Assembly (NCBI GenBank): GCA_900199595.1
Contig: FZRB01000010.1
Location: 62,001 to 126,000, forward strand
Source of the DNA: Lachnospiraceae bacterium
GTDB lineage: Bacteria > Bacillota > Clostridia > Lachnospirales > Lachnospiraceae
Direction: 5' to 3'
DNA: 64,000 nt
The stretch's first letter is position 1. Each line of letters starts with the position of its first letter. A model generated the notes under the pieces. The model was not told the origin of the DNA and made no database searches. It saw only the letters and a program-made list of their open reading frames with translations. Both the position numbers and the translations under genes were made by a program. Shown piece by piece: positions 32,564 through 50,789 of this stretch.

Positions 32564-32630
32564 TCACTAATAATGTGACATTAATTCCAAAAGACAAAAT
32601 GTATTTAATTCATAATAAAGGAGAATAAAT

Positions 32631-35207: not shown

Positions 35208-35225
35208 ATTCTATCTCCAACTATC

Positions 35226-35675
35226 TTACTTCTCTTCGGTCACATCCAGCAGAAGCTCTGCTGTAACCTGGGGATGGAGCTTTATCTTAACATTATATCC
35301 TCCCAGTGCTTTAACCGGATCCTTCAAAACAATCTTTTTCTTATCTATATCAATATTCAGCTGCGCCTTTATCAGCTCGGCGATTTCTTTTGATGAAACT
35401 GAACCAAAGGTCTTTCCGTTAGCTCCAACCTTCATTGTACAGGTTATTTTCTTTTCAGCAAGCAGGGCTTTAAGCTCCTCTGCTTCAGCTAGATTCTCAG
35501 CTGCTATCTTTTCATCATTCTGATTTTTTAATTTAAGGTCATTAAGATTCTTAGGAGTAGCCTCTACACCAAGCTTTTTAGGAAGAACAAAATTTCTTGC
35601 ATAACCCTGATTTACTTCAACTATTTCTCCTTTTTTTCCAAGCGATTTAACATCCTGTAATAAAATAATTTTCAT
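35226..35675 (-). CDS. rplI: 50S ribosomal protein L9
   Basis: Large-subunit ribosomal protein of 149 residues. The N-terminal rRNA-binding domain has the L9 signature [20 protein letters not shown], followed by a long connecting helix and a C-terminal domain with [14 protein letters not shown]. It lies between gdpP and dnaB, the usual order. Starts at the ATG at 35675, 3 bases from gdpP. Confidence 0.98.
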
Positions 35676-35678
35676 TTT

Positions 35679-37739
35679 TTATATCTCTCCTCGTTCATAC
35701 ATATCCTTCAGAACTTTTTTCAATTCCTCAAAGAATTCTTCCTTCTTTTTATCCTTAAGCTGTGCTCCTGCAACATTTGAATGTCCGCCGCCATTAAACT
35801 TTTCCATAACGATCTGAACATTCACATCGCCTATTGACCTGGCGGATACATACAGCATGCCGTCATCAGCCTCTGTAACTACGAAGGAAGCTGTAATATT
35901 ATCTACATTTAACAGCTCATTTGCCGTTTTCGCGACAGCTACAGTAGGCGCATCCGGTGAATCAGGATCCGCAGAAACATATGAAAGGGCAAAATGGTCC
36001 ATATATATGGAAGCATTGCTTATTCCCTGCGCTCTTTCCTTCATTTCAAGCATTGAACTTCTAAACATCTTACGAACTCTGGTAATATCCGCTCCACTCT
36101 TTCTGAGGTACGAAGCGGCTTCAAAGGTTCTGACACCTGTTTTGGTCAGGAAATTATCAGTATCTATAAGAATTCCGGCATACATGGCATCAGCTTCCTG
36201 AGATTTCAGTCTCGGATTCCTTGAGATATACTGATACATTTCTGCTATCATTTCGCAGGCAGACGAAGCAAAAGGTTCTATATAAGAAAGAGTAGCCCCT
36301 GTAATTGCCTCATTTGTCTGTCTGTGATGATCAAATACAACAACTGTCGGAACGAGACTCAGAAGTTCCTCACATTCTGTCATGCTTGGTCTGTTAACAT
36401 CACACACAACAACTACGGTGTTCTGATTTACCTCAGTAACAGCCTGATTACTAGTGAGAAATACATTTTCATATGTATTTCCAACCATAAATGTATTATA
36501 TAAAGGCTTGATTGCTTCTGTAACTTCATTAATAACTATGTGAGCCTTCTTTCCGAGACTTGTAACCATACGATAGATTCCGATAGCCGAGCCAAATGCG
36601 TCTGCATCGGGTCTTTTATGAGCCATTATCAGAACCTTATCCTTACTGAGAAGGAGTTCTTCAAATGCCTGAGCCTTAACTCTGGCCTTAACCCGGGTAT
36701 TCTTCTCTGTTCCGGCACTCTTACCGCCAAAGTAAGTAACCTGATCACCCAGCTTAACAGCCACCTGATCACCACCTCGGCCCATAGCCATTCCTATAGC
36801 AGTTCTTGCATTGTCATATGCATTCATAAAACTGCTGGTGGAGGAATCAGCATCAGCTCCTATACCTATACTGAGTGTCATGGATATTTCATTTCCGACA
36901 TTTATGTTTTTAACTTCATCAAGAAGGGAGAATCTGTCATCCCTGAGAGTCTGCATAAACTTCTGTCTAAACACGAAAAAGTATTTATCATTTTCTGTGT
37001 GTTTAACTATGGCATCTATATTGCCAAGATACATATTGATCTTTCTTTCAATAAGCGCCGTAAGTATGGAATGCTTTACATCCTCCAGAGAATCCATAAC
37101 CTCGTCATAGTTATCAAGATATATGAGACCTGCGTACAGCTTCTGATCCAGGGTTTCCTGTTTATATTTTCTCAGTTCTGTCTCATCAAACAGATATACC
37201 ACCAGAACTATATCATCATCCTTGGTCTCTTCTTCATTTTCATCAAAAACCTTAGTCATATCAACTCTCTTCATTGAGAGTCTGTATTGTCTGTCAGCAT
37301 ATTCTATGCTTGTTTCTATATCATTTCCTTCACCTATAATATCAGGTGTGATCTGTGAAAAATAAGAATCAATGGTCTTTTTTATTCTTGTATCCCTGGA
37401 TACACCTATGGTGTCATGAAAAACATCATTTGCCCACATAATATGCCCGGACATATCAAGAATAGCATAAGGAACCTCTAGCTCTTTTATCAGCTCCTTC
37501 TGGATTTTCCCCTGTTCAAGTGAATAATCCACCATGATCCTGCTTATAGCCGGAAGCATTCTGAGATAAATGATCACTACGATAATAATGTATATTACCA
37601 GCAGCACCAGACTTGCCAGACCGACCTTGCTGTCGATCCCATTCACATAAATCTCAAAGCCCAGCAAAAACAGCGCCAAAAGAACCGGAATAATAAGAAT
37701 ATATTTAATTCTCTTTCTTAACTGTCTCTCATTACTCAT
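35679..37739 (-). CDS. gdpP: Cyclic-di-AMP phosphodiesterase GdpP
   Basis: Membrane-anchored enzyme of 686 residues that hydrolyses cyclic di-AMP. Two membrane helices (about 13-31 and 38-59), a PAS domain (about 85-180), a degenerate GGDEF domain (about 200-330, without the GGDEF active-site motif), and a DHH-DHHA1 domain: MAHKRPDADAFGSAIG, CDVNRPSMTE and the DHHR triad, then FNGGGHSNVAGA near the end. c-di-AMP controls cell-wall homeostasis and potassium uptake. It overlaps valS by 4 bases (ATGA) and lies 3 bases before rplI. Confidence 0.97.
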   Translation of the reverse strand: MSNERQLRKRIKYILIIPVLLALFLLGFEIYVNGIDSKVGLASLVLLVIYIIIVVIIYLRMLPAISRIMVDYSLEQGKIQKELIKELEVPYAILDMSGHIMWANDVFHDTIGVSRDTRIKKTIDSYFSQITPDIIGEGNDIETSIEYADRQYRLSMKRVDMTKVFDENEEETKDDDIVLVVYLFDETELRKYKQETLDQKLYAGLIYLDNYDEVMDSLEDVKHSILTALIERKINMYLGNIDAIVKHTENDKYFFVFRQKFMQTLRDDRFSLLDEVKNINVGNEISMTLSIGIGADADSSTSSFMNAYDNARTAIGMAMGRGGDQVAVKLGDQVTYFGGKSAGTEKNTRVKARVKAQAFEELLLSKDKVLIMAHKRPDADAFGSAIGIYRMVTSLGKKAHIVINEVTEAIKPLYNTFMVGNTYENVFLTSNQAVTEVNQNTVVVVCDVNRPSMTECEELLSLVPTVVVFDHHRQTNEAITGATLSYIEPFASSACEMIAEMYQYISRNPRLKSQEADAMYAGILIDTDNFLTKTGVRTFEAASYLRKSGADITRVRKMFRSSMLEMKERAQGISNASIYMDHFALSYVSADPDSPDAPTVAVAKTANELLNVDNITASFVVTEADDGMLYVSARSIGDVNVQIVMEKFNGGGHSNVAGAQLKDKKKEEFFEELKKVLKDMYERGEI

Positions 37740-40408
37740 TTCAGATTACCAATTCTCTCGCATACCTGCGCATAAGTCTCCTTATACTTCGCAAGTTTCT
37801 CCTTTTCGGCATTAACTTTTTCTTCAGGAGCTTTATTAACAAAGTTTGGATTGCCGAGCATTCCTTCGCCTCGTTTTATCTCTCCTTCAAGACGAGCTTT
37901 CTCTTTATTCAGTCGTTCAAGCTCTTTTTCTATATCAACAAGCTCAGCAAAAGGAATGTATATCACTGCATTATGGATAACTGCTGATACAGCATCTTCC
38001 TGTATGCCTGTTTTATCTGCCTGTACCTTTACATCACTTGCATAACCCAGAGCAGCAAAGAAGGATGAACTCTCCTCAAATACCGAGCGGATATCCTCTT
38101 TGTCTGAGACAACATATACAGCAGCCTTTCTTGAAGGCGGTACATTCATATCAGTTCTTACTGTTCTTATGGCACGAACAGCATCCTTGATGATATCTAC
38201 ATTCTTAGCCTCTACGTCAAAGTCTCTTGCGTCCTCTGCTACCGGCCATGGATCTATCATTATTGACTCTCTGCCTGTAAGTGTGCAGTATATCTCTTCA
38301 GTAACAAATGGCATATATGGATGAAGCAGCTTAAGTCCTATAGACAGAACTTCTCTGAGTGTCCAGAGAGCTGCAGCCTTGGTTGTATCATTCTCATCCC
38401 AGAGTCTAGGCTTAACCATCTCGATATACCAGTCACAGAACTCATCCCAGAGGAAGCCATGTATCTTATCTGCTGCTATTCCAAGTTCGAACTTCTCCAT
38501 GTTGTCTGTAACATCACGAACCAGCTGGTTGGCCTTTGCAACTATCCACTTATCAGCCATTGTAAGATCATCAAGAGTTATGGCATTTACAGCATCAAGC
38601 GCTGCCTGTCCGCCCTCTTCATCTGCATCAGGCATGTTCATCATAATAAAACGTGAAGCATTCCATATCTTATTAGCAAAATTACGGCTGGCATCAAGTC
38701 TGTCCCAGATAAATCTCATATCATTACCCGGTGCATTTCCGGTAATGAGCATGAATCTCAGGGCATCAGCACCGTACTTGTCGATTATCTCAAGCGGATC
38801 GACACCATTTCCGAGAGACTTACTCATCTTACGACCCTGTTCATCACGAACAAGACCATGGAAGAGAACCGTATGGAACGGAATCTTATCTGTCTGCTCA
38901 AGTGATGAGAAGATCATTCTGATTACCCAGAAGAATATAATATCATAACCGGTTACAAGAACGTCTGTCGGGAAGAAATACTTAAAATCCTCAGACTCTG
39001 TATCAGGCCAGCCAACTGTTGAAAATGGCCATAGTGCTGATGAGAACCAGGTATCAAGAGTATCAGGATCCCTCTTAAGGTTCTTGCTCTTACACTTCGG
39101 ACATTCACAAGGCTCATCCATCTCTACGATGGTTTCACCACAATCCTGACAATACCAGGCAGGGATTCTGTGGCCCCACCAGAGCTGTCTGGATATACAC
39201 CAGTCACGGATATTATCAATCCAGTTGTAGTAAATCTTGTTCATTCTTTCAGGAACAAGCTTTACTTCTCCCGTCTCAACTACCTTGCGGGCACGAAGAG
39301 CCATATCATTCATCTTAACAAACCACTGAGGCTTGATGAGAGGCTCAACTGTAGTTCCGCATCTGTCATGTGTTCCTACCATATGAGTATGAGGAACAGT
39401 TTTAACCAGAAGTCCCTGAGCCTCAAGATCCTCAAGAACTGCCTTACGTGCCTCATATCTGTCCATTCCATGATATCTGGTATCAGGACAATTTATAGTA
39501 GCATCATCATTCATTATATTGATTTCTTCGAGGTTATGGCGCTTTCCAACCTCAAAGTCGTTAGGGTCATGACCCGGAGTTATCTTAACACATCCTGTTC
39601 CGAACTCCTTATCTACATAAGCATCGGCAATAACAGGAATCTCGCGATTAACAAGCGGCAGAAGAAGTGTTTTTCCAACGATATCTGCATATCTCTCATC
39701 TTCAGGGTTAACTGCTACAGCTGTATCACCCAGAAGAGTCTCAGGACGGGTTGTTGCTATCTCAACAAATCTTCCCTCTTCACCTACTACAGGGTAATTG
39801 ATATGCCAGAAATTTCCATTCTGCTCCACATGCTCTACCTCTGCATCAGATATAGTGGTCTCACATACAGGACACCAGTTTACTATACGGGAGCCCTTAT
39901 AGATCCAACCTTTATCATAGAGCTTCTTGAATACTGTATTTACAGCTTTATTATTGCCTTCATCCATGGTGAAGCGTTCTCTGTCCCAGTCAGCAGAAGA
40001 ACCCATTCTCTTAAGCTGATTTACAATACGTCCACCATACTCTTCACGCCACTCCCAGGCTTTCTTCAGGAAGCCTTCGCGTCCCAGGTCATTCTTATCA
40101 ATGCCCTGTTCCTTCAGTGATGCAATGATCCTAACCTCTGTAGCAATAGCTGCGTGGTCAGTACCCGGCTGCCACAGAGCATTGTATCCCTGCATTCTCT
40201 TCATACGGATAAGAATATCCTGCATAGTATTATCCAGGGCATGTCCCATATGAAGCTGTCCTGTAATATTTGGAGGCGGCATCACAATAGTAAATGGTTT
40301 TCTGCTTCTATCTACCTCAGCATGAAAATATCCATTATCAACCCATTTTCTATAAAGTCTTCCCTCTATATCTTCAGGATTATAATTCTTTTCGAGTTCC
40401 TTACGCAT
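37736..40408 (-). CDS. valS: Valyl-tRNA synthetase
   Basis: Class Ia aminoacyl-tRNA synthetase of 890 residues, charging tRNA-Val. HIGH motif as PPPNITGQLHMGHALDN (about 44-60), KMSKS in GRKMSKSLGNGVDP (near 545), the editing domain (about 195-345) and the C-terminal coiled-coil arm (about 825-890). No T-box leader fits the short space upstream (40409-40481). It is followed by the overlapping gdpP gene. It lies 73 bases downstream of the DUF5717 operon with no convincing terminator in between. Confidence 0.98.
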   Translation of the reverse strand: MRKELEKNYNPEDIEGRLYRKWVDNGYFHAEVDRSRKPFTIVMPPPNITGQLHMGHALDNTMQDILIRMKRMQGYNALWQPGTDHAAIATEVRIIASLKEQGIDKNDLGREGFLKKAWEWREEYGGRIVNQLKRMGSSADWDRERFTMDEGNNKAVNTVFKKLYDKGWIYKGSRIVNWCPVCETTISDAEVEHVEQNGNFWHINYPVVGEEGRFVEIATTRPETLLGDTAVAVNPEDERYADIVGKTLLLPLVNREIPVIADAYVDKEFGTGCVKITPGHDPNDFEVGKRHNLEEINIMNDDATINCPDTRYHGMDRYEARKAVLEDLEAQGLLVKTVPHTHMVGTHDRCGTTVEPLIKPQWFVKMNDMALRARKVVETGEVKLVPERMNKIYYNWIDNIRDWCISRQLWWGHRIPAWYCQDCGETIVEMDEPCECPKCKSKNLKRDPDTLDTWFSSALWPFSTVGWPDTESEDFKYFFPTDVLVTGYDIIFFWVIRMIFSSLEQTDKIPFHTVLFHGLVRDEQGRKMSKSLGNGVDPLEIIDKYGADALRFMLITGNAPGNDMRFIWDRLDASRNFANKIWNASRFIMMNMPDADEEGGQAALDAVNAITLDDLTMADKWIVAKANQLVRDVTDNMEKFELGIAADKIHGFLWDEFCDWYIEMVKPRLWDENDTTKAAALWTLREVLSIGLKLLHPYMPFVTEEIYCTLTGRESIMIDPWPVAEDARDFDVEAKNVDIIKDAVRAIRTVRTDMNVPPSRKAAVYVVSDKEDIRSVFEESSSFFAALGYASDVKVQADKTGIQEDAVSAVIHNAVIYIPFAELVDIEKELERLNKEKARLEGEIKRGEGMLGNPNFVNKAPEEKVNAEKEKLAKYKETYAQVCERIGNLK

Positions 40409-40481
40409 TTGTTTATCACTCTCTTTCCTTATATTTTTTAATTTAAGACCAATTATCCTTAGTCTAAAATATCATACCTTC

Positions 40482-41315
40482 TTAAATCGCTTGCTCCCGG
40501 AAGTCATCCTTGATCTCACTAAGGATTATATCCATCCTCTTATCGTAATCCGTCATATCTTTATTCATCTTGTTATATGCCGCTCTCTGAAGCATCGCAA
40601 AGATAGTCATTTCTCGGACATCATCCTTGGAATCTCCTATCTCATGCATTATCTCATCAAGATATTCATCAGGAAGTCCCTGATATCTTATCTCACTTCT
40701 CAGGGTAGAAGTGTCAGAAGTGAGAGCCACTATATAGAAATATCCTTTTAAAGATTCTGGATTTTCATTTAATTCATAGGCCTTCAGGAAGAATTTCTTT
40801 GCATCCTCAAGATCCATGTTATTTGAAGCAGCTACAGCCCGGTTGTGATAGATATTTCCAAGAAATACGGGGTCTCTGGTATCATCTATCTCATCCAGAA
40901 TATCATCATAGAAGGTTGCTGCCTTGATATATCTCCTGTATGCCAGATATCCATCTGCCTTCAGCTTTGCACGCTGCATCTTATCAAGTTTCCTGTACTT
41001 CTGCCATGCTTCAGCATAGGTCTTGATTTCTTCAAGAGTATAATAATCACCTGCACTTAATATTTCTATCAGAAAATCCTGCGCATATGTGGTTTTATTA
41101 AGCATTCCGATAAGCTTGTCTGCCAGCTCTTCCATCCCCAGTTCTACTCTTATCCAGTTAAACAGCTTCTCTGAAAGAGAGGACTTGCTTATCAGCATGG
41201 TATTATTGTAGATATAGAAGCAAAGCTCCTCATAGGTGTATATCTCAACCTTTGTGTTGAGAAATGTGAAAGGAGTTTCTGCAACCTTATTACTGCAAAG
41301 AATGATTTTTGACAT
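40482..41315 (-). CDS. TPR-like protein of the DUF5717-DUF5716 operon
   Basis: Soluble protein of 277 residues with no enzyme motif. The N-terminal ~120 residues are alpha/beta (SKIILCSNKVAETPF). Residues about 125-195 contain two TPR-like helix pairs (YIKAATFYDDILDEID and NIYHNRAVAASNNMDLEDAKKF). The C-terminus is charged and helical. I cannot name a family. The start ATG overlaps the stop codon of the DUF5716 gene by one base (TGATG), so it is translationally coupled. By context it is a partner of the other two proteins. Confidence 0.7.
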   Translation of the reverse strand: MSKIILCSNKVAETPFTFLNTKVEIYTYEELCFYIYNNTMLISKSSLSEKLFNWIRVELGMEELADKLIGMLNKTTYAQDFLIEILSAGDYYTLEEIKTYAEAWQKYRKLDKMQRAKLKADGYLAYRRYIKAATFYDDILDEIDDTRDPVFLGNIYHNRAVAASNNMDLEDAKKFFLKAYELNENPESLKGYFYIVALTSDTSTLRSEIRYQGLPDEYLDEIMHEIGDSKDDVREMTIFAMLQRAAYNKMNKDMTDYDKRMDIILSEIKDDFREQAI

Positions 41316-42568
41316 CAGATCTTAAACTCCTTTCTATATATTTTATTTGTTGTAGGAAACATTTTTCCGAAGCCCATATCACGAATGATGACCGCTCCTT
41401 CGTTCGGACTTTCAAACTCTACCTCAAGACTCAGCTTTGTGGTTTTGTTAGGTCTTTTTGGAAGTCCGTGTATTCTGACGGTTTCCCTCTTCTCATCGTC
41501 GAACTTTCGGTTCTTATAAACGATGGTGACTTTATCGGTATCATCCATGATAACATTAAGTCTTCCTGTAGTGTTATACCACTGATTACCGCCTGTTATA
41601 ATAGGAATAAATGTATCCTTTTCATCTCCCAGAGATATTCCTATATCTGAAAGAACATTTTCCTTTGTTTCAACAAAGAACTCATCATAGAAGGATCTGT
41701 ACTCGCCGCCAACAGCTCTGTAGCAGGCTCCCTTTGTATAAATATTCTGTCCCACAAAGACTCGTCTTCCCTGGCAGAGAACATTTGTCGACTTCTTCAT
41801 CCACTTGTTTGAAAAACCGACTCCCGTCAGAAAAACAGCTGATATATATGCCTTCTTGCCCTCGTACTCTGCTATTTTCGCAAAATCAACATCCATCTGA
41901 TATGTATCATTTCCGTACTTGGACAGGGATATCTCACCTGTATAATCCTCATGGATTACATTTATTGTCTTTGGGTCTTTATTCTTTGCTATATCTATTC
42001 TGTAATAATTCAGACCATCAGTACTGTAATCATATAATGCAACACTGTTATTCCACAGCTCTGGCGGCTGATTGAATATGTAATAAAGTCCACTGTCAAG
42101 ATGACTGGTTATCTCAATGGTTTCTTTATCAACATTCATTTCCTTATATAATTCACTTAGAAGGCTGAAAATCTCAGGATCAAAAGTCTCAACCGATATA
42201 ACAAGCTTTCTTATCTCTGCCGTCTCATATCTGTAAAGAAATGTATCTATATGCAGCTTTACCATCATCATAAAAAGCTGCTTATAGGTATATTCATGAC
42301 CTGCTACAGTGACTATATCTTCACTGCTGAGATTCTCAAATATACCATCCACCACAGTACCATTTTCGTTAAAACGTGCTTCAGAAGCTTCACCGCCAAC
42401 ATACCAGTGTTCGGTATCGGTACTGTAAAAGAGAATATTGGGCATCAGATAGGTTTCTTTATTATTCAACTGGCTGACTGATTCCGGCTCACGTTTTATG
42501 TCATTATAGTATGACAGCTGTGTAAAGTCGGAACAGAGATCCATGCCTATGTAGAATACTTCTGCCAT
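41315..42568 (-). CDS. DUF5716-family actin/Hsp70-like protein
   Basis: Protein of 417 residues with the layout of an actin/Hsp70-type ATPase. Phosphate-1 is FYIGMDLCSDFTQLSYY (5-21), phosphate-2 is VALYDYSTDGLNYY (176-189) and the adenosine motif is AVFLTGVGFSNKWM (244-257). A stretch GRRVFVGQNIYTKGACY (267-283) matches the Hsp70-like pattern following that motif. A beta-rich C-terminal domain (about 300-417) follows. Hydrolysis residues are not confirmed by eye. DUF5716 is restricted mainly to Lachnospiraceae and has no known role. It sits between the DUF5717 giant gene, 35 bases upstream, and the TPR-like gene. Confidence 0.8.
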   Translation of the reverse strand: MAEVFYIGMDLCSDFTQLSYYNDIKREPESVSQLNNKETYLMPNILFYSTDTEHWYVGGEASEARFNENGTVVDGIFENLSSEDIVTVAGHEYTYKQLFMMMVKLHIDTFLYRYETAEIRKLVISVETFDPEIFSLLSELYKEMNVDKETIEITSHLDSGLYYIFNQPPELWNNSVALYDYSTDGLNYYRIDIAKNKDPKTINVIHEDYTGEISLSKYGNDTYQMDVDFAKIAEYEGKKAYISAVFLTGVGFSNKWMKKSTNVLCQGRRVFVGQNIYTKGACYRAVGGEYRSFYDEFFVETKENVLSDIGISLGDEKDTFIPIITGGNQWYNTTGRLNVIMDDTDKVTIVYKNRKFDDEKRETVRIHGLPKRPNKTTKLSLEVEFESPNEGAVIIRDMGFGKMFPTTNKIYRKEFKI

Positions 42569-42603
42569 TTTTTTCCTCCGTTACCATTTAGATTCTATTC
42601 CTG

Positions 42604-45600
42604 TTATAGTATCCTCAGATTTTCCTCAAAGAGATGTACAGTATTGATATATACATCCAGCTCCTCAAGAAGCTCTTTATCCTTACGCATTTCCTGTTTA
42701 ACAAGCATAGAATTTATCTGTTCAAAGCGACTGAGATTCTTGTCAGAGAAGGTTCTCTTCTTAAGAACATCGCTCTCATAGATCTTCGCATTTCCATTAG
42801 GATCGTCTTCAATGGAATAAACAAGTCTTTCTCCATGGAACACCACAAATTCAAGTACATAAACTCCACTGACAACCTCTTCCATACGCCGTCTCTCAGT
42901 CTTCTGTTTCCCTCTTGTTCCTGTATCAAAGCTGTACTTAACAAATACCTGTCTTTCTCTTTCGCTCTTATATACAAGATATGTCTTAAGGAATATATCC
43001 TGCGGAAGCCTGATAAATGAATCAAATCTCTTGAAGAATGGAAGCAGCTTTCCGGCATCCACAAACTTCTCCACATTTTCCTGAATCCAATTTCTCTGAA
43101 CATCAGAGAATCTCTCCAGTTTACTGAAATACAGAAGAAGTGCCATAGTTGATATCTCATCATCTATGTTACCTTTAAGAACCTCCTGGAACATGGCGTC
43201 GAATATGGAATTCGGTACCTGAGCGTCATTTACCAGATAATTATGTGCTGAAAGTCTGGTAAATGCCTTCACAACAAGGCCTCTGCTTCTACCTCCATAA
43301 TAAGTGTGGAATACGTCATATATATATTCGATATAGGTATTTGAGAACATCATCTGAACCAGAGTATTCTCTGCCAGAGGACCTATATCATTTACCTTGT
43401 CCTTTGCAAGCTTGAAGAGATCTGCCAGCTCCTCGAGACTTCCCTTGAAGTTTGACACAAGATAACCAAGTATATTGGCGTTTACTGTTCCGGTCTTATA
43501 GAGGTTGATACATATGGACATCAGATCTTCTATCATAAATCCGTCTGAATCAGTAACACCATAATCAGCAAGACGGTACAATTCGTTGGTATCCAGCTCG
43601 TTAAAACCATAGAGCTTAACAGCCTGGAATGCTTTATCGAACATGTTCATATCGATAAGATATGTAATGATGGTTCTTGCATTTGCATGTGTCAGATACT
43701 CTATATCAAGTCTGCTCAGATATTTTATGAGAACATCTGTATCCAGATTCTCATGATAGTACTCAATAATGTTGAGGCAGGCCTGCTGCTTATAATCATA
43801 GGATATTTCATCGCACTGAATTATCTCTCTTGCCGCATTTACCTCTTTGGCACTTCTATAGGTGAACTGACCAAGACTTTCATAATTAAACAGAAGTACT
43901 CTGTAATCTCTCGGACTGTACTCACGGCAGATAGGCATATAAGCCTTCTCATCAACTATCCTCTCGAAATGATAAGGAATGGAACCGGCATATCTGTTAC
44001 CGTTTCTATCCTCAAATATAATAGATGCATTTTCCGAAAGAACCTCTACGTACGCCTCTCCGTTAACCAGAGGAACCTTCTGAACATTCTGCAGTTCCTC
44101 ATGACTGACAATAACTGCAACAACATTTTTATTGGTACATACAACCTTACGGCGGAAAATGATGTTGATAAGCTTGCCTGCGTAGACACTGCTTACATTT
44201 TCCGGCTCAAGGAATTCATCGTATATAACGGTAAGGTCATCATTTACCTTGCCCTTTACGATCATATTCTCCATGAAATCTTCCATAGTCGGAGCATATT
44301 CGTGATATATCTTCATATGCTCTGACTTGTTGAATATGACATTTGCATAGAGATAAGCCTGCTCATCTTCTGTAAGTGTGTTCTTATAATTGAGATACAT
44401 AAGTACAGACGTAGGAATCAGATCATAACGGGATCTGTTCATGCTTCTGATGTAACACTCATTAAGTCCAATGAACTTAAGACTGCGCATAACTGCAGCT
44501 TTATAAAAACGATGATACTTATAATCCAGCATATTTGCAGATATAAGCATGGAACATATACTGGAAAGAACTTCCAGATTCTCGCTCTCTTTACGACTGA
44601 GCTTTTCTGCTGCATCAGCTCTGATTGCCGCATCAAATCTTGAATCTGTGGAATCATCAAGGCTGTGTATATTTTCAGCAGTTTCTTTTGTTCTTTCTTC
44701 TACGGATGATTTTTCTACAGAATCCAAGGATTCCGTATCTTTATAAGCTTCTGTCTCATCCTCGGACTCATCCTCTTCTTTCAGATAAAGCTTAACTCTT
44801 CTCTCCTCATCTTCAAAGCTTCCGAGCTGGGAATCTGACTTATTACCGAAATTAAAGGACATATCCTCAAGAGATTCATCATCATACTCATGAATGGCTG
44901 ATATTCTCGACTGCTCATCCACATCAGCTCTTCCCGAATCAAGAAAGATAGCTTCATCAAAGCCTCTTTCAACAGCTGCTTTTCTTCTTTCAACCCTGAG
45001 CTCAGTCTCGTTTTTATCATATATTTCTCTTAAGACATCAAAGATCTTCTTATTAAAATCCTTGTTTTTTCCGGCTATTTTAACAAATTCCAAAAGAACA
45101 TCATCAGAGATGTATTTATTTCTAAGTCCCCACTTGATACTTGTAATCTCACAGGATGTCAGACGTCTGAGCATCATAGGATTTCCATTAAAAAGATTAC
45201 AGAGCTCAAAGTATATCACCGGACTGTTACTGCCCTCATTGTACATCTGGGAAAGCTCTCTGTATAAAGCAGCCTTATCCTCACTCAGATCCTCATCCAC
45301 AAACAGAAGAAGCCAGAAGTAAAACAGCTTAGGCTGCTCTGTTCTGTAATTTCTTCTGATGAGATTTGCCGTTTTCTTGATGGTCTCCTCATCCTTATCC
45401 ATCATTGCCTTCAGATAGTTATAGTAGCAGAGCTCCATAGCTCCCATACTTGACTTATCTACATCAGCTTCTATTCTGAGAAACTCCTGTTCAACCTTTG
45501 CAAATTCACCGGAAAGAATATTCATATGAATGATTGCCAATCTATACATATCCTCTTCCGGCTCAAGCTCATTCAGCTTTTTAAGTGCCTTCATGTTCTG

Positions 45601-46593
45601 GCTTATATATTCTTCGAGATTAATTCTGTCCATGCGGAAATTCAGATATGCCCTGGTGATATCCGATCTGCACTTCTTGTAACTCTTAATCTTGAAATGA
45701 CTTTCATGATTAGCTCTTGCCTGAGTAGGTTTAAGAAGGTGAATCTCAACCTCTATCTTCTGATATATATTCTCTATGATCAGCTTACCGGTATTCTCTC
45801 CATCAGGAACGTGCTCTGGCGAGACATACACCTTAAGTGAACAGGTATTGCCTGTAAAGTCCTTTGCCGATATGGTCTTTTTTGAAGGAATGATGAATTC
45901 TGAGTCTGAACGAATCTCAGAAAATGTATATCCCCATGTGTTTTTCTGTATATCAACTGTTACACTTTCAGTTTCACGAGGCATGTTGATATCTATTTTC
46001 GCCTTTGACACAGAAAGAGTTACTGTTCTTTTCTTTGATACAAGAACAAGGAATTCCTCCATAGCCTGATTGACAGAACGGCTCTCCAAAAGACTTTCGT
46101 ATATCTTTTTTATGATAGTTTCTTTCTCAATAAATGTTCTCTTAAAATCATCACGTACAAAAAGCCTTGCGGCATCATTCCAGTTTCTCTCTGCAAGAGA
46201 AGCAAACTTGAAAAGATCATCTATCTTCTCATCGTGATTCTTGACGCATGGCTGAACTATACTGATGTCATATGGAAGTCTCCACTCTCCACCATCAGTT
46301 ATTACATTTATATGTCCATGAAAATTCTGACCGGCCTCAAAACAGGTAGCATCCAGAGAATACTTAACCACATAATTTCTGCTGATAAAACTGTGGTCCT
46401 CAAACCTCAGAAGATATCTGCTGTCATATACCATTCCCTTGATCGGAAATCCATTCATGCTGTCTATTCTGAATGAACTCTCATAAACTGTTCCGGCCTC
46501 TATGCTGATTTTAAAGCTTGTTTCAGATATGCTGATTTCGGGTCTGTCTATAATAAACTTTCCCTTTGCATATTGCTCGACTATCGCCTTCAT
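42604..46593 (-). CDS. DUF5717-family giant protein
   Basis: Protein of 1329 residues without known catalytic motifs. The first ~290 residues are beta-rich, with Ig-like strands (SFKISIEAGTVYESSF, ITVSVDI-type strands). A helical solenoid follows (about 300-580), then a Ser/Glu-rich disordered segment (about 580-650), a second long helical region to about 1180 and a short beta-rich tail (YVLEFVVFHGERLVYSIED). No signal peptide or membrane helix. GGAG lies 7 bases before the ATG at 46593. It is the first gene of the operon with DUF5716 and the TPR-like gene. The scaffold-like architecture suggests a large assembly; this is an inference. Confidence 0.82.
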   Translation of the reverse strand: MKAIVEQYAKGKFIIDRPEISISETSFKISIEAGTVYESSFRIDSMNGFPIKGMVYDSRYLLRFEDHSFISRNYVVKYSLDATCFEAGQNFHGHINVITDGGEWRLPYDISIVQPCVKNHDEKIDDLFKFASLAERNWNDAARLFVRDDFKRTFIEKETIIKKIYESLLESRSVNQAMEEFLVLVSKKRTVTLSVSKAKIDINMPRETESVTVDIQKNTWGYTFSEIRSDSEFIIPSKKTISAKDFTGNTCSLKVYVSPEHVPDGENTGKLIIENIYQKIEVEIHLLKPTQARANHESHFKIKSYKKCRSDITRAYLNFRMDRINLEEYISQNMKALKKLNELEPEEDMYRLAIIHMNILSGEFAKVEQEFLRIEADVDKSSMGAMELCYYNYLKAMMDKDEETIKKTANLIRRNYRTEQPKLFYFWLLLFVDEDLSEDKAALYRELSQMYNEGSNSPVIYFELCNLFNGNPMMLRRLTSCEITSIKWGLRNKYISDDVLLEFVKIAGKNKDFNKKIFDVLREIYDKNETELRVERRKAAVERGFDEAIFLDSGRADVDEQSRISAIHEYDDESLEDMSFNFGNKSDSQLGSFEDEERRVKLYLKEEDESEDETEAYKDTESLDSVEKSSVEERTKETAENIHSLDDSTDSRFDAAIRADAAEKLSRKESENLEVLSSICSMLISANMLDYKYHRFYKAAVMRSLKFIGLNECYIRSMNRSRYDLIPTSVLMYLNYKNTLTEDEQAYLYANVIFNKSEHMKIYHEYAPTMEDFMENMIVKGKVNDDLTVIYDEFLEPENVSSVYAGKLINIIFRRKVVCTNKNVVAVIVSHEELQNVQKVPLVNGEAYVEVLSENASIIFEDRNGNRYAGSIPYHFERIVDEKAYMPICREYSPRDYRVLLFNYESLGQFTYRSAKEVNAAREIIQCDEISYDYKQQACLNIIEYYHENLDTDVLIKYLSRLDIEYLTHANARTIITYLIDMNMFDKAFQAVKLYGFNELDTNELYRLADYGVTDSDGFMIEDLMSICINLYKTGTVNANILGYLVSNFKGSLEELADLFKLAKDKVNDIGPLAENTLVQMMFSNTYIEYIYDVFHTYYGGRSRGLVVKAFTRLSAHNYLVNDAQVPNSIFDAMFQEVLKGNIDDEISTMALLLYFSKLERFSDVQRNWIQENVEKFVDAGKLLPFFKRFDSFIRLPQDIFLKTYLVYKSERERQVFVKYSFDTGTRGKQKTERRRMEEVVSGVYVLEFVVFHGERLVYSIEDDPNGNAKIYESDVLKKRTFSDKNLSRFEQINSMLVKQEMRKDKELLEELDVYINTVHLFEENLRIL

Positions 46594-46766
46594 CCTGGTA
46601 CTCCGTCTCCCCCATCAAACTCCGGCACTCATTTCCATTTAATCCATTTTTATCTTGAAAGAGTACCTTTAACTGTTGTATACTTTAATTGATTTGCAGG
46701 TAAAAATTCCGAAAGTAAATCAATTTATTATAACAAATAAACTTTATTTTTTAAAGGAAAAATATC

Positions 46767-47819
46767 ATGAATGCAACACCTCTTAGAATAGAACAATACG
46801 CTACTGTACTTTTCAACGCGAATCTTAATCCCAGAGGCATTCCCGACTCTGTAAAAATGTCGATCAAGGATAATATTGATACTATATCGAAATATCCTGA
46901 CATTTATTATTCCAAGCTTAAAACCGCTGTTGCAGAGTATGTTGGCGAACCACTTGATAACATAGTTCTGGGAAATGGCTCCACTGATCTTCTAAAGCTT
47001 TTCGGTGCTCTTCTTACTCCTAAGAAGGCTATGATAGTTTATCCCGGACCAATGGAATACGCCAGAATTCTCAGTGCTTACAATTCAGAGGTTCTTTTTT
47101 ATGAGTTGAAGGATGAGAACGAATTTGTCCTTGATATCAATGATTTCATCACTAATCTTACAGATGATATGGATATGGTGATCATATCTAATCCTAACAA
47201 TCCTACTTCAAAGAAGATAAGCCTGGAAGATATGAAGACTCTTGCTGAGGCATGTAAGGAAAAGAAAATATTTCTTATAGTTGATGAGATGTATATCGAA
47301 TTTGTGGAGAATTATAAGACTATCACCGCAGTTCAATTAGTCAATGATTATGATAATTTAGCAGTCATGAGAAGTGTATCCAAGTTCTTTTCTGTTCCCG
47401 GACTTAGATTTGGATATGCAATAATGAATAATCCAGAATTAAAGGAAATCATTGAGAAAATCATTACCAAGAACAATATAGCTTCGCTTACTGCAATAGC
47501 TATAACAAATATGTTAAAAGATACTGAATATATCAATGAATCCATATCCACTATACATACAGAACGTTCACTTGTATACCTTGCCATGTCAACCTGCAGA
47601 ACAATACACCTATTTAAGCCGGATGCGAACTTCATGCTGGTAAAACTCCTAAAGGATGATATAACCTCAGCCGATGTGGCAACTCACTGTTCACAGCGTG
47701 GTATAATTATTAGAAAATGCGACGATATAAAGGGATTATCCAACAAATATATCCGCTTCTGTTTCATGAATCCGAAGCAGAACGACCTGATGGTAAATAC
47801 AATACTTGAAATTGTTTAA
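46767..47819 (+). CDS. PLP-dependent class I/II aminotransferase (HisC/CobD-like)
   Basis: Cytoplasmic enzyme of 350 residues. Key features are LGNGSTDLLKLF (PLP phosphate contact), NPNNPTSKKI, the acidic VDEMYIEF and the Schiff-base lysine in RSVSKFFSVPGLRFGYAI, then an Arg in KYIRFCFMN that binds the substrate carboxylate. The pattern fits the HisC/threonine-phosphate decarboxylase (CobD) group. There are no histidine or cobalamin genes here, so the substrate is open. AAAGG lies before the ATG. A strong bidirectional terminator follows. Confidence 0.88.
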   Translation: MNATPLRIEQYATVLFNANLNPRGIPDSVKMSIKDNIDTISKYPDIYYSKLKTAVAEYVGEPLDNIVLGNGSTDLLKLFGALLTPKKAMIVYPGPMEYARILSAYNSEVLFYELKDENEFVLDINDFITNLTDDMDMVIISNPNNPTSKKISLEDMKTLAEACKEKKIFLIVDEMYIEFVENYKTITAVQLVNDYDNLAVMRSVSKFFSVPGLRFGYAIMNNPELKEIIEKIITKNNIASLTAIAITNMLKDTEYINESISTIHTERSLVYLAMSTCRTIHLFKPDANFMLVKLLKDDITSADVATHCSQRGIIIRKCDDIKGLSNKYIRFCFMNPKQNDLMVNTILEIV

Positions 47820-47820
47820 A

Positions 47821-47861
47821 AAAAGATGACACTTTGAACCAGGTTCAAAGTGTCATCTTTT
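47821..47861. terminator. Strong bidirectional terminator
   Basis: A near-perfect 20-base inverted repeat: AAAAGATGACACTTTG...CAAAGTGTCATCTTTT, with flanking A and T runs. It separates the converging aminotransferase (plus) and VanY-like gene (minus). Confidence 0.93.
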
Positions 47862-47874
47862 TATGTAAACCACT

Positions 47875-48726
47875 TTATTCATTTTCGGAAAGATATACCA
47901 GATATTCCTCAAGACAGAGATCCAGCTCCTTCATTTCCTGAGCGGCCTTCTCTCCTACATAGCGATAATGCCATGGCTCATTGTTGATCCCGGTAATATC
48001 TATCTTATTTTCCGGATAGCGTTTTATGAAACCATACTTATATGCATTTTCATCCAGCCAGTTATATACGGTATCATCATCACTGACATCATTGTTTGCA
48101 TTTATATCTACACTTATACCAAGCTCATGCTCACTTGTACCAGGTACAGCAACATACTGTTTTGCATATGCTATTGCCTCATCCTCAGTACAGCCCTCTG
48201 CCTCATAAGCTTCTACCCTGCTGTCCATGATACTCTGCTGATCTTCTCTTGTTCTGTAGCCTTCTCTTACAAACAGATCCATTCCATAGCTTCTGGCATC
48301 ATCAAACATGGCCTGAAGCTTAGGATATATTCTCGAATCAACCTGTTTCCCATTTGAAAGATCTGTCAGCTTTATTTCATAATCGTCCGGAACAGGATTA
48401 TACTGATTTACCAGAATCAGGCACCATTTATCATCCTCTTCTGTCTCCTCAGTATTATCCTCGGTACTATCTACAGTGTTTTCTTCGGTAACTTCTTCGG
48501 TTACCTCTTCAGTAGTTGCTTCTGTAATTTCTTCGGTTGTTTTCTCCGTTGTTTCTTCAGTAGTATTTTCTGTAGTTGCTTCTGTCGATTCCTCTGTAAA
48601 TTCTTCCGCCATCTCGATTGTAGTTTCTTCATTATTTGATGTATCAGAATTGAATCCACAACCTGAAAAAGAAAGAATAAACGTAGCTACCATTAGAAAT
48701 ACTACTTGTTTTTTACGGTTGATCAT
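47875..48726 (-). CDS. D-Ala-D-Ala carboxypeptidase, M15B (VanY-like), lipoprotein
   Basis: Secreted peptidase of 283 residues that trims D-Ala from peptidoglycan precursors or stem peptides. Lipoprotein signal with FSGC (Cys near 23), then a Thr/Glu-rich low-complexity linker (about 30-100, TEETTEKTTEE-type repeats), then the M15 domain. The zinc motif SEHELGISVDIN (SxHxxGxAxD form) and EPWHYRYVG are intact. It overlaps the Na/Pi cotransporter gene by 4 bases, so it is co-transcribed. It is not by itself evidence for vancomycin resistance. Confidence 0.9.
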   Translation of the reverse strand: MINRKKQVVFLMVATFILSFSGCGFNSDTSNNEETTIEMAEEFTEESTEATTENTTEETTEKTTEEITEATTEEVTEEVTEENTVDSTEDNTEETEEDDKWCLILVNQYNPVPDDYEIKLTDLSNGKQVDSRIYPKLQAMFDDARSYGMDLFVREGYRTREDQQSIMDSRVEAYEAEGCTEDEAIAYAKQYVAVPGTSEHELGISVDINANNDVSDDDTVYNWLDENAYKYGFIKRYPENKIDITGINNEPWHYRYVGEKAAQEMKELDLCLEEYLVYLSENE

Positions 48727-50789
48727 TTCTTTGATTTCTTATCTTCCTTTGTTTTTTCCTTTTCTTTATCTTTTTTTGTTTTTTCTGTTTTTTCTTTCTT
48801 TTTAATTATCTTGAGTTTCTCTTTTTTATCCTTTTTGTCGGTTTTACTTTCTTTTTCTTTTTTATCAGTCTTTTCCGGCTTGACGGTCTTCTTATTCTTT
48901 TCCTTATTATGCGATTGGGTTTCTTTTATACTCTTATCCTTGGTGTCTTGTTCTTCCGGTTTTTTCTTCTTTGTCACAGATTTCTCATCCATAACTCTTA
49001 CCGGTTCCAGATATTTGTCTCTATAGTACTTTTCAAGCTCCAGATATTCTTCATTTTTCTTGTCAACAATACTTCCGTGCAGAGGATCAAGACTGACATC
49101 TCTGGAAAGTCTCTTTATGGTATGCTTGGAAATACTCTTTGAATGAAGTGCAATCCTCTGAAGACTGTTCGTTATATCATAAAGCGCAACTCCACCCTGA
49201 ACTCCGCAGTCTCCTGTCTGTAGACGTTCAACATGATGGGATTCTATCAGCAGCTTCAGTTCTTTAATCGTTCTGCTAAGTGGCTGAACACTGAAAGCTT
49301 TATTCATATTTTCGCTTTCAACGGATGAAAATGTTAACTCCAGCACTTTCTTCGTAGCTTCTATTATTGCACTTATCTCTGAAAGACCTTTATCTGAAAA
49401 ATGCACATTATTATCATGACATTCCTGAGCAGTATAGGCTATATTCATACAATAATCGCCTATTCTTTCATAATCACCAATAGTATTCAGCATGGAATTG
49501 GCCATACTGATATTATCAAGTGTAAGCCTCTTTCTATCTATCTTTACTATATATGCCGAAAGTACGGTTTCACATTTATCTATAAAATCTTCATTCCTTC
49601 TAAGGTCATCAAAAAGCTTTTCGTCATAATCTGATATAAGCCCTGTTGCCATATGAAAGTTTTCCTGAATTCTCTCTGACATAACACTCATCAGATTCTT
49701 GCACTGAGTAAGTGCTATTCCCGGGGTCTTAAGCAGCATGTCATCAAGATGTCTGAATTCATCCTCAACTACTTCTTCCTCATTATCTCTAATAATTCTG
49801 GTAGTTATATCTGCCATCTTGTTGGAAAATGGAAGAAGCACTAAGCTGATGATCAGGTTAAAGCCCAGATGAAGATTTGCTATATTTCCTCTGTTTACAG
49901 GATTGCTGAAAAATGGGATTCCTACAGTATAGTAGATCAGATAAATAATTACAGAATAAAATATCGCTCCTACTATGTTGAAAAGAAGATAACTGAGGGC
50001 AACTCGCTTGGCCTGCTTATTTGCTCCTATACTTCCGAGAAGGATGGTAAAACATTTTCCTATATTTGCACCTATAATGATAGGTACAGCTGAGCCATAG
50101 GTTACGCTTCCTGTTGCGGAAAGCGCCTGAAGGATACCCACCGAAGCACTGGAGCTCTGAATAAGAGCTGTTAAAGCGAGTCCTATCATTATTCCAATAA
50201 AAGGATTGTTGAAAGCCACAAACATATTTCTAAAGCTTTCAGACTCCTTAAGTGGAATAAAGACTTCTTCCATAGCAGTCATGCCATAGAAAAGTGTTCC
50301 AAGACCTACAAATATTCCAGAAAGCTCTATAAGCTTCCTGCCCGGTACAAAATTATTTCTTACCTCACCGATAATAAAAAGCAATGCGCCAAGAGCAACA
50401 AGCATTGGTGCAAAGGAAGAGGGTTTCAGAAGCTGTAAAACCAGACTGCCTGAACCCAGATCGCCCAGCCTGAGTATCTGCGCGGTAACGGTACTACCGA
50501 TATTTGAGCCATACACTACCGGAATAGCCTGTGAAAGAGTCATTATGCCGGCATTAACAAAACCAATAAGCATAATGGTGGTGGCAGCTGAGCTCTGAAT
50601 AATACCGGTAACTCCAAGTCCGAGTGCCCAACCCTTTAGCTCACCTACGCCCTTCTTTTTACTTGTTGTTAGTGTCTGTAGTATCTTCTCCATTCCTGCT
50701 CCTGCAAGCTTTTTCAGAGATGAACCCATAAGATTCATTCCGAAAAGGAAAAGACCGACTCCACCAAATAATCCTAGAAAATCAATCAT
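48723..50789 (-). CDS. Na/Pi-cotransporter family protein with PhoU domain and Lys-rich tail
   Basis: Membrane protein of ~688 residues. Two Na/Pi-cotransporter repeats (QSSAATTIMLIGFVNAG and QSSSASVGILQALS, each with the QSS motif) make up the first ~310 residues, followed by a PhoU-like helical domain (about 330-550). The last ~90 residues are almost entirely Lys, Glu, Asp and Thr (KKKPEEQ, KEKTKEDKKSKK), an unusual tail. Family members import phosphate with sodium. I use the ATG at 50789, with GAGG 6 bases before; it overlaps the stop region of the DUF3737 gene. The downstream VanY-like gene overlaps by 4 bases. Confidence 0.9.
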   Translation of the reverse strand: MIDFLGLFGGVGLFLFGMNLMGSSLKKLAGAGMEKILQTLTTSKKKGVGELKGWALGLGVTGIIQSSAATTIMLIGFVNAGIMTLSQAIPVVYGSNIGSTVTAQILRLGDLGSGSLVLQLLKPSSFAPMLVALGALLFIIGEVRNNFVPGRKLIELSGIFVGLGTLFYGMTAMEEVFIPLKESESFRNMFVAFNNPFIGIMIGLALTALIQSSSASVGILQALSATGSVTYGSAVPIIIGANIGKCFTILLGSIGANKQAKRVALSYLLFNIVGAIFYSVIIYLIYYTVGIPFFSNPVNRGNIANLHLGFNLIISLVLLPFSNKMADITTRIIRDNEEEVVEDEFRHLDDMLLKTPGIALTQCKNLMSVMSERIQENFHMATGLISDYDEKLFDDLRRNEDFIDKCETVLSAYIVKIDRKRLTLDNISMANSMLNTIGDYERIGDYCMNIAYTAQECHDNNVHFSDKGLSEISAIIEATKKVLELTFSSVESENMNKAFSVQPLSRTIKELKLLIESHHVERLQTGDCGVQGGVALYDITNSLQRIALHSKSISKHTIKRLSRDVSLDPLHGSIVDKKNEEYLELEKYYRDKYLEPVRVMDEKSVTKKKKPEEQDTKDKSIKETQSHNKEKNKKTVKPEKTDKKEKESKTDKKDKKEKLKIIKKKEKTEKTKKDKEKEKTKEDKKSKK

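Follow-up and report, generated by a model that had tools for sequence, protein, structure and literature searches.

A predicted lidless pseudo-Hsp70 encoded with a putative scaffold and a TPR-like protein in a conserved operon of Lachnospiraceae

The window, a 64,000-nucleotide stretch of a Lachnospiraceae contig, carries three closely spaced genes, as the initial annotation described, all of them on the minus strand: a DUF5717 gene, a DUF5716 gene and a gene for a TPR-like protein (together, the trio). ORF coordinates confirm that the latter two overlap by one base, at 41315. The features of the locus and its flanks are as follows.

37736–40408, minus strand: putative valS-like downstream neighbour (label of the initial annotation; not claimed as a member)
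40409–40481, minus strand: 73-nt gap between the TPR and valS-like genes, with no more than a weak hairpin (z −1.73) and neither a T-box nor a terminator-like site
40482–41315, minus strand: putative TPR adaptor, 277 aa; about 100 conserved N-terminal residues, then TPR-like helices (ORF and Pfam)
41315–42568, minus strand: DUF5716, predicted pseudo-Hsp70, 417 aa (Pfam, fold, residues and tree)
41318–41671, minus strand: DUF5716 linker and SBD-β-like domain, about residues 300–417, without a helical lid (match to DnaK 7krv and profile alignments)
41705–42568, minus strand: nucleotide-binding-domain-like part of DUF5716, about residues 1–288, without most of subdomain IIB (structure match and IIB spacing)
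42604–46593, minus strand: DUF5717, putative scaffold, 1,329 aa (ORF, Pfam and orthologue model)
42625–43530, minus strand: DUF5717 C-terminal Pfam domain, residues 1022–1323 (Pfam)
45004–46593, minus strand: best-scoring DUF5717_N stretch, residues 1–530 (Pfam)
46727–46755, minus strand: promoter-like site (TTTAAA-17-TATAAT, with TG) in the interval that separates DUF5717 from the divergent aminotransferase-like gene (consensus match only)
46767–47819, plus strand: putative hisC-like aminotransferase, divergent upstream neighbour

The two larger window proteins are members of their Pfam families far above the cut-offs (DUF5716_C, E = 5.5e-96, 321.5 bits against a gathering cut-off of 34.7; DUF5717_N, 1.3e-272, and the DUF5717 C-terminal domain, 1.4e-65, 907.1 and 222 bits against 25). 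No NCBIfam model matched the window proteins over its cut-off. Pfam describes the families as of unknown function, and the open-access literature searched gave no description of them or of their tie to an Hsp70/GrpE operon, in keeping with the initial statement that they have no described function; there was no paper for DUF5717, and the match for DUF5716 was titled on mismatch repair and curcuma. Crude hydropathy gave no TM segment in the trio proteins (19-residue maximum 1.3).

An actin/Hsp70 fold had been proposed for DUF5716 from its motifs, and structure prediction bears this out. The AlphaFold model (pLDDT 90.7) has an Hsp70 fold composed, as in DnaK, of a nucleotide-binding domain (NBD) and an SBD-β, with DnaK and Ssz1 as its best structure matches. 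In VIA, the top rows are Ssz1 of the RAC complex (Z 20.1) and DnaK (Z 19.5), a tie by the rule of the tool, and all 50 rows listed have Hsp70-family titles except 7n6g_6K (‘C1 of central pair’). Over the full length, residues 4–417 match residues 2–503 of DnaK (7krv), and ranges from residues 1–4 to about 288–298 match Ssz1 or Hsp70 NBDs. The helical lid is missing, as the model stops after the SBD-β strands and the DnaK match reaches only to about residue 503. A DUF5716 sequence profile (A2) run against PDB sequences up to E 10 gave four matches, the best three being weak ones to DnaK (E 0.021–0.062) and the fourth one to a designed protein (0.23).

For DUF5717, Ig-like and solenoid regions had been suggested, and a model predicted for an orthologue rather than for the window protein itself agrees, with two Ig/PapD-like domains followed by a solenoid, a β-region, a second solenoid and a second β-region. 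Whole-chain Foldseek searches returned solenoid or Ig proteins with low TM; the clearest domain-level match is a PapD-like domain of HYDIN (TMt 0.70 over 110 columns). Most orthologues outside the genus are shorter than the window protein by about 140 aa. The TPR assignment also holds: the match in the 277-aa window protein, a length kept by most named orthologues, is below the Pfam cut-off (TPR_8, E 0.0029), its counterpart at a sister-family locus (L041) clearly belongs to the TPR proteins (TPR_19, E 2.7e-20), and an N-terminal motif, identified by eye, is common to the window protein and the TPR proteins of such loci. At two loci (L078 and L081), DUF5716 and the TPR protein are fused in a single ORF.

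DUF5716 was found in 246 of 248 genomes of the family, which we read as Lachnospiraceae (all but G1138 and G1141), in 5 of 398 genomes of a phylum sample, all five Lachnospiraceae, and in sister families of the order; DUF5717 occurs in 166 of 294 genomes of the order overall. The predicted linkage extends to related genomes, with all three genes together within the locus piece in 43 of 47 other Lachnospiraceae genera. The trio is also present in Eubacterium ruminantium ATCC 17233 (L170), a near relative with 73% identity. Automatic ORF choice placed antisense ORFs over the expected DUF5716 of L054, where a genome search finds the gene, and over the TPR genes of L072 and L044, which are taken as present. 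Purifying selection acts on the trio (dN 0.06–0.14 with saturated synonymous sites, four relatives by three genes). Together, the selection, the near-universal presence and the linkage indicate that the trio is more than a chance arrangement. Three stretches of viral contigs matched a pattern, none of them a DUF5716 relative. A link to sporulation was dropped: none of five genomes of the window's genus has a SpoIVA match, and all have DUF5716.

Sister families within the order have eight genes at this locus, arranged as one operon (the octet): a split DUF5717, three Hsp70s (HspA, HspC and HspD, one with a vWA domain), a GrpE-domain protein, a DUF5716 pseudo-Hsp70 and a TPR protein. In most octet loci, the DUF5717_N stretch is divided between a gene of its own and the beginning of the gene that follows. 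Of 30 GrpE-type proteins, 29 match GrpE in Pfam (E up to 0.01), and two GrpE matches per genome were found in 14 of 14 octet genomes versus 3 of 17 trio genomes, in one of which the second match is below the cut-off. A further GrpE-domain protein is encoded on contig C3 of the window genome. Of the six PF00012 matches in that genome, two are pieces of DnaK, two are pieces of one 564-aa Hsp70, and two fall in ORFs of about 330 aa, which we read as MreB; on this basis the genome lacks HspA, HspC and HspD. An active Hsp70 set should need a J-domain protein, yet a Pfam scan of two octets found none, a departure from the DnaK–GrpE system. The octet also differs from that system in joining three active paralogues and a dead one to a giant scaffold.

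A further protein of many loci, M (A6), has a coiled coil and a membrane hairpin. Its gene comes after the TPR gene in 30 loci; two hydrophobic segments, at about 165–240, are present in all 23 of the 30 that were checked, and M has no Pfam match over the cut-off among the families listed. It was found in 8 of 20 genomes: all seven octet genomes (one as a fragment), none of five from the window's genus, and one of eight other family members, a figure biased by the choice of some of these for a valS gene after the TPR gene. Given this distribution, it was dropped as a part of the window system.

The gene downstream of the trio is one that we take, with the initial annotation, to be valS-like, and the divergent upstream gene is presumably a hisC-like aminotransferase; each of these neighbours occurs in part of both the trio and the octet loci. 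The interval 40409–40481 contains no terminator-like site, consistent with the earlier remark that no convincing terminator precedes valS. Rfam, run over 32000–49000, gave no match near the gathering score and so no T-box; two sub-threshold matches both lie away from the trio. The promoter-like site at 46755–46727 (minus strand) fits 10 of 12 consensus positions and has the TG, in a region with 37 such sites against a shuffle mean of 40.2, that is, no enrichment. The absence of a terminator ahead of valS and the top-ranking Ssz1 matches would suit a cotranslational or translation-linked chaperone resembling RAC, in line with a valS–gdpP–rplI–dnaB neighbourhood. We consider this unlikely, as valS lies within the locus piece (the pieces being limited in length) in only 17 of 52 trio loci, from Lachnospiraceae, and 4 of 31 octet loci, and the analysis brought no ribosome-binding feature to light in passing.

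In an active Hsp70, subdomain IIB serves nucleotide closure as well as GrpE docking. Trio and octet DUF5716 differ in this subdomain, the part of DnaK gripped by GrpE, as described in part of PMC10825016. About 70 residues of IIB are missing from all 77 trio rows and from none of the 30 octet rows; the spacing between the equivalents of D194 and G341 is 53–78 residues in the trio, compared with 143 in the genome's own DnaK. IIB and the octet GrpE-domain protein are absent together from the trio. The trio rows are ORFs of 350–470 aa (76 distinct sequences, the window gene also being L022), 32 of them belonging to the genus of the window and the other 45 coming from outside it, including L093 from another family; two fusions (725 and 684 aa), short fragments and L046, in which the gene is split, were left out, and L032, L037 and L094 were measured apart. 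One of these, L037, keeps IIB (137 residues) without a GrpE gene in its 18.6-kb piece, so the link between IIB and GrpE is not strict, unless L037 has a GrpE elsewhere in its genome.

In profile–profile comparison, DUF5716 matches octet DUF5716 at 100% and octet HspC at 99.1%. A quick tree of 81 rows (12 each of HspA, HspC and HspD, 22 of the 30 octet DUF5716, 18 trio, 3 extra and 2 own-genome Hsp70s), in which long branches, including that of the window, and odd letter make-up were flagged, groups the trio DUF5716 in one clade (98, starred), sister to the octet DUF5716 of L031 (100, starred), and places all DUF5716 as sister to HspC (99, starred). In this tree, the trio DUF5716 is nested within the octet group. 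The opposite polarity, with the trio ancestral and the octet arising by the addition of Hsp70 genes in sister families, draws on the simplicity of the trio, its near-universality in Lachnospiraceae and the patchier DUF5717 elsewhere in the order. It is improbable given the starred branches, the retention of IIB in octet DUF5716, the sharing of hisC-like and valS-like neighbours by part of both sets, and the fact that a degenerate Hsp70 must derive from an intact one.

The initial annotation described DUF5716 as having all three nucleotide-binding motifs and proposed an ATPase. The motif positions are recognizable; the catalytic residues are gone. Using what we take to be the catalytic residues of DnaK (K70, E171 and T199), and mapping by sequence alignment at low identity, the equivalents of K70 and T199 are found in 0 of 107 aligned DUF5716 homologues and that of E171 in 3 (0, 0 and 0 of the 77 trio rows; 0, 3 and 0 of the 30 octet rows, the three being L105, L124 and L125). 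Three trio rows have a gap at K70, and in a second alignment the E171 column changes to S, N, T or P and is never E. Nucleotide-binding residues are thus not conserved across homologues at the catalytic positions. The phosphate-2 glycines are mostly missing and the G10 equivalent is present in only 13 of 77 trio rows. By contrast, octet HspA (28), HspC (31) and HspD (26) keep every catalytic residue checked, a likeness to the DnaK–GrpE system, as is the presence of a GrpE domain. An active actin- or Hsp70-like ATPase, forming filaments or chaperoning, would accord with the fold and with the D8, D194 and G341 equivalents, mostly kept in the trio (69/77, 56/77 and 77/77), but the losses just described, with that of IIB, make it very improbable. 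Evidence of filament assembly did not emerge in either direction. Because these three positions are mostly kept, DUF5716 may still bind nucleotide; the lost residues argue against ATP hydrolysis.

Least credible is a branch of GTPase-centred (GAP1-N2) or other NTP-dependent conflict or defence systems with Hsp70 and GrpE: GAP1-N2 neighbourhoods, in the account given in part of PMC7159879, contain Hsp70, GrpE, a second Hsp70 without a peptide-binding domain, and fusions of FNIII proteins with DnaJ or TPR, and so resemble the combination of Hsp70, GrpE, reduced Hsp70 and β-sandwich/TPR protein in one neighbourhood, but GAP1-N2 is missing from 15 of 16 genomes tested and lies outside the locus, on another contig, in the remaining one, no GAP1 or DO-GTPase name appears among the 25 families listed of the 73 matched by 42 flanking proteins, the core locus is present in nearly all family members rather than patchily, and PADLOC gave nothing beyond HEC-02B, matched weakly and in part (E 0.0023, 31 residues).

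The reading that we favour as probable is a pseudo-Hsp70 that acts as a clamp without ATP, mounted on an Ig/solenoid scaffold and accompanied by a TPR adaptor, the trio being the remnant of a larger machine. DUF5716 would be a degenerate relative of the active octet HspC that has lost ATP hydrolysis and, in Lachnospiraceae, also the GrpE-gripping IIB. It would form a cytoplasmic complex with the TPR adaptor and with the DUF5717 scaffold of tandem Ig/PapD-like domains and α-solenoids, and would bind peptides. The ancestral complex would be a multi-Hsp70 machine, still present in sister families, in which three active lidless Hsp70s, one of them bearing a vWA domain, are joined by a GrpE-domain protein as their dedicated exchange factor, by the scaffold and the TPR protein, and by a pseudo-Hsp70 fixed in place. 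Lachnospiraceae would have lost the ATP-driven part and kept the static core, probably as a docking hub or a clamp for peptides, resembling Ssz1 of the RAC complex. That protein, another lidless Hsp70 in a fixed complex, binds ATP without hydrolysing it (described in part of PMC7083937). It differs in being eukaryotic, with the J-protein Zuo1 as partner, whereas linkage suggests DUF5717 and the TPR protein as the partners of DUF5716, and IIB is lost in the trio. Judging by residues and fold, DUF5716 may work like Ssz1, with ATP bound but not hydrolysed in a fixed partner complex. The trio was initially thought to be a new kind of assembly standing by itself; it looks instead like a reduced form of the Hsp70/GrpE/vWA/TPR operon of sister families.

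Hsp70s are among the best-studied proteins. The multi-Hsp70 operon was found only within one bacterial order in our samples, with no description in the literature searched. It is possible, and we suggest it tentatively, that it represents a new class of bacterial chaperone: a relay of three active lidless Hsp70s and a dead one, with GrpE-domain, vWA, scaffold, TPR and often membrane-hairpin parts, reduced in Lachnospiraceae to its ATP-free core. If so, a dead Hsp70, parted from the rest of its set, would still perform a conserved function in the cell, one that would be near-universal in the gut family Lachnospiraceae. Octet and trio would form an evolutionary series in which an active chaperone became a dead one. 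That series makes testable what a pseudo-Hsp70 does without ATP turnover, an exchange factor of its own or active partners.

The trio consists of three minus-strand genes, whose places and lengths in the initial annotation were confirmed by an ORF check of the window; the one-base overlap claimed between the DUF5716 and TPR genes is likewise real in the window sequence:

40482–41315 (minus strand), TPR gene, 277 aa
41315–42568 (minus strand), DUF5716, 417 aa
42604–46593 (minus strand), DUF5717, 1329 aa

Pfam matches of the window proteins to DUF5716_C and DUF5717 are far above cut-off; the TPR repeat of the 277-aa protein falls below the Pfam threshold. Within the genus, purifying selection acts on all three genes (dN 0.06–0.14 between the window and four relatives, with synonymous sites saturated), and a hydropathy scan found no membrane-helix-like hydrophobic segment in any of the proteins. 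In one genus member (G011), DUF5716 occupies two ORFs of 271 and 136 aa (L046:9364–10561, plus strand), a possible frameshift or assembly error. Elsewhere in the window, the gene at 47875–48726 (minus strand), whose product we take to be a D-Ala-D-Ala carboxypeptidase/VanY-like lipoprotein, encodes a long Thr/Glu-rich low-complexity stretch behind a signal region.

Among the Lachnospiraceae searched, DUF5716_C is present in 246 of 248 genomes and 240 of 242 genera, and was not found in G1138 and G1141; a close relative of the locus, in Eubacterium ruminantium ATCC 17233, has 73% identity. The proposed linkage holds across the family, with DUF5717, DUF5716 and TPR genes together in 43 of 47 DNA pieces from 47 other genera. 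Two of the exceptions (L070 and L092) end at contig ends, and in the other two (L054 and L072) an antisense ORF was picked in the slot. DUF5716_C also occurs in sister families of the order, and the C-terminal domain of DUF5717 in 166 of 294 genomes of the order. Two wider samples represent these sister families thinly: in the class sample DUF5717_N exceeded cut-off in 20 of 393, all Lachnospiraceae (one more match lay below it), and in the phylum sample DUF5716_C was present in 5 of 398, again all Lachnospiraceae. The system looks restricted to the order.

Other families of the order have a larger locus (Pfam searches of two examples, and gene maps), an eight-gene operon, the octet:

Genes of the octet operon, in order
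DUF5717 N part, ~390 aa
Rest of DUF5717, ~900 aa
HspA (Hsp70), ~558 aa
GrpE-domain protein (N terminus much extended), mostly 565–645 aa
DUF5716, ~515 aa
HspC (Hsp70), ~546 aa
HspD (Hsp70 fused to a vWA domain), ~692 aa
TPR protein, ~387 aa

Packing is tight in trio and octet alike (median intergenic gaps −1 to 30 nt). All nine counted modules are present in 16 of the 31 HspC-bearing loci, some of which are cut by contig ends; eight loci lack one module, each time the DUF5717 N part, and seven lack at least two. At L098 both DUF5717 parts form one gene, as in the trios, and in one genome (G040) the octet parts are spread over three contigs (L032, L033 and L126). Beside the scattered HspC–HspD–TPR genes of that genome lies a 2466-aa ORF (L033:11778–19178, plus strand), for which a Pfam search to E 0.001 gave no hit. 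At least 95% of 27 sequences retain DTTGS in the vWA domain of HspD, a motif that we read as its metal site. In 30 loci the TPR gene is followed by one for a coiled-coil, membrane-hairpin protein, which was found in 7/7 octet genomes and 0/5 window-genus genomes searched. None of the 47 pieces from the window's family carries an HspA, GrpE, HspC or vWA label.

The actin/Hsp70-like fold proposed for DUF5716 is borne out by AlphaFold2 prediction with 48 homologues (pLDDT 90.7), the top Foldseek PDB match being a truncated DnaK (E 1.8e-20). VIA-align ranked Ssz1 of the ribosome-associated complex first (Z 20.1, r.m.s.d. 4.3, 276 aligned), in a tie with DnaK 7krv (Z 19.5, r.m.s.d. 6.5, 381 aligned, 4–417 on 2–503). 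Catalytic residues, in DnaK numbering, were read from a joint alignment in which the DnaK of the window genome served as reference. D8, G10, T11, T12, K70, E171, D194, G196–G198, T199, G341 and G342 are present in every HspA (28), HspC (31) and HspD (26) sequence. Octet DUF5716 (n = 30) has K70 in none, E171 in three and T199 in none. The trio set (77 rows, 76 distinct, 32 from the window's genus) has none of the three, three rows having a gap at K70, and keeps G10 in only 13 rows, D8 in 69, D194 in 56 and G341 in all 77. In the window protein the positions of D8, G10, K70, E171, D194, T199 and G341 are occupied by D, C, F, H, D, G and G. Histidine replaces E171 in 59 of the 77 trio rows and is invariant (H156) across the 48 sequences of alignment A2; a second alignment has other letters in this column for the rows shown, with glutamate only in HspC. 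Given these losses and the mostly retained D8, D194 and G341, ATP hydrolysis by DUF5716 is unlikely, but the protein may bind nucleotide.

The D194-to-G341 spacing is 143 residues in the genome's own DnaK, 177–182 in HspA, 144–146 in HspC, 153 in HspD, 133–152 in octet DUF5716 (30/30) and 53–78 in trio DUF5716 (77/77). In a profile alignment the trio gap falls at subdomain IIB, within limits that we assume for it. In DnaK, GrpE contacts and rotates IIB (PMC10825016). The octet relative nearest to the trio, L031, has 139 residues in this stretch and a GrpE gene, and L094 and L032 also have both. L037 counts against strict coupling, however, with 137 residues and no GrpE gene found in its 18.6-kb piece. 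Genome-wide, two GrpE matches were found in 14/14 octet genomes; among the 17 trio genomes there is a single match in 14 and a pair in three (the window genome, G199 and G064, the second match of G064 being below cut-off).

Three other loci concern Hsp70-like or GrpE-domain proteins. The window is on contig C22 of its genome; outside it, on contig C3, L211:8924–10339 (plus strand) encodes a 471-aa protein with a C-terminal GrpE domain (PF01025, 3.5e-30, residues 359–470) and an N terminus that is Hsp70/actin-like by eye, without a Pfam match; the ORFs after it are presumably MoxR-, DUF58- and transglutaminase-like. Near-full-length relatives occur in 22 of 36 other same-genus genomes searched, and outside the genus (24 genomes) the match is limited to the GrpE part; the protein is possibly a second pseudo-Hsp70, in fusion with an exchange factor of its own. 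In trio genome G199, an Hsp70 (496 aa) and GrpE-domain (403 aa) pair lies near a 1566-aa ORF (L212:7877–10578, minus strand), at a locus distinct from the octet. On window-genome contig C11 (L129:9975–15421, minus strand), a 564-aa Hsp70 adjoins a 1250-aa protein that has many TPRs and, at its N terminus, a J-domain (PF00226, 1.3e-6) whose HPD motif appears by eye to have become NPE.

In a quick tree of 81 sampled rows, flagged for long branches and for unusual letter composition, trio DUF5716 forms a single clade (98), sister to the octet DUF5716 of L031 (100); the surrounding clade includes the octets of family f22 (95), and HspC is sister to all DUF5716 (99). A trio-type locus from another family (L093, f8) falls inside the trio clade. 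This placement of trio DUF5716 supports a reduction from octet to trio. A divergent hisC-like gene adjoins DUF5717 in 13/31 octet loci and 19/52 trio pieces of the window's family, and a valS-like gene lies within 4/31 and 17/52, respectively; although in the minority, these neighbours are seen in octets and trios alike, consistent with a single ancestral site. The labels hisC, valS, gdpP, rplI and dnaB are those of the initial annotation or our own presumptive ones.

A model of a 1192-aa DUF5717 orthologue (pLDDT 86.2, pTM 0.57) has two N-terminal β-sandwiches, two solenoid stretches and more β-domains; window-genus DUF5717 is about 140 residues longer than most other orthologues. The HYDIN PapD-like domain matches a 110-column stretch (TMt 0.70), and among the solenoid matches are TPR/HAT-type proteins, with low TM. 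By eye, an N-terminal motif is common to the TPR proteins of octets and trios. At L078 and L081 DUF5716 and TPR form one ORF, which suggests that the two are in physical contact.

A role for the trio as a sporulation device in the window genus is ruled out, since SpoIVA was not found in any of five genomes of that genus. The octet is most likely an ATP-driven chaperone array on DUF5717, which its own GrpE-domain protein would reset and in which DUF5716 would be a fixed subunit; the trio would be the static core of that array. Complex formation and client binding are inferred. The closest working analogue is Ssz1, described in PMC7083937 as lidless, not hydrolysing ATP and acting within a fixed complex. 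The closest described arrangement that we found is that of the GAP1-N2 GTPase systems with their Hsp70/GrpE theme (PMC7159879), but of 16 genomes tested 15 lack GAP1-N2 and the other carries it outside the locus. A literature search that covered few subscription journals found nothing on DUF5717 and only a passing mention of DUF5716. Hsp70 chaperone systems are a known kind; as far as these searches show, this multi-paralogue operon and its ATP-free descendant are previously undescribed.
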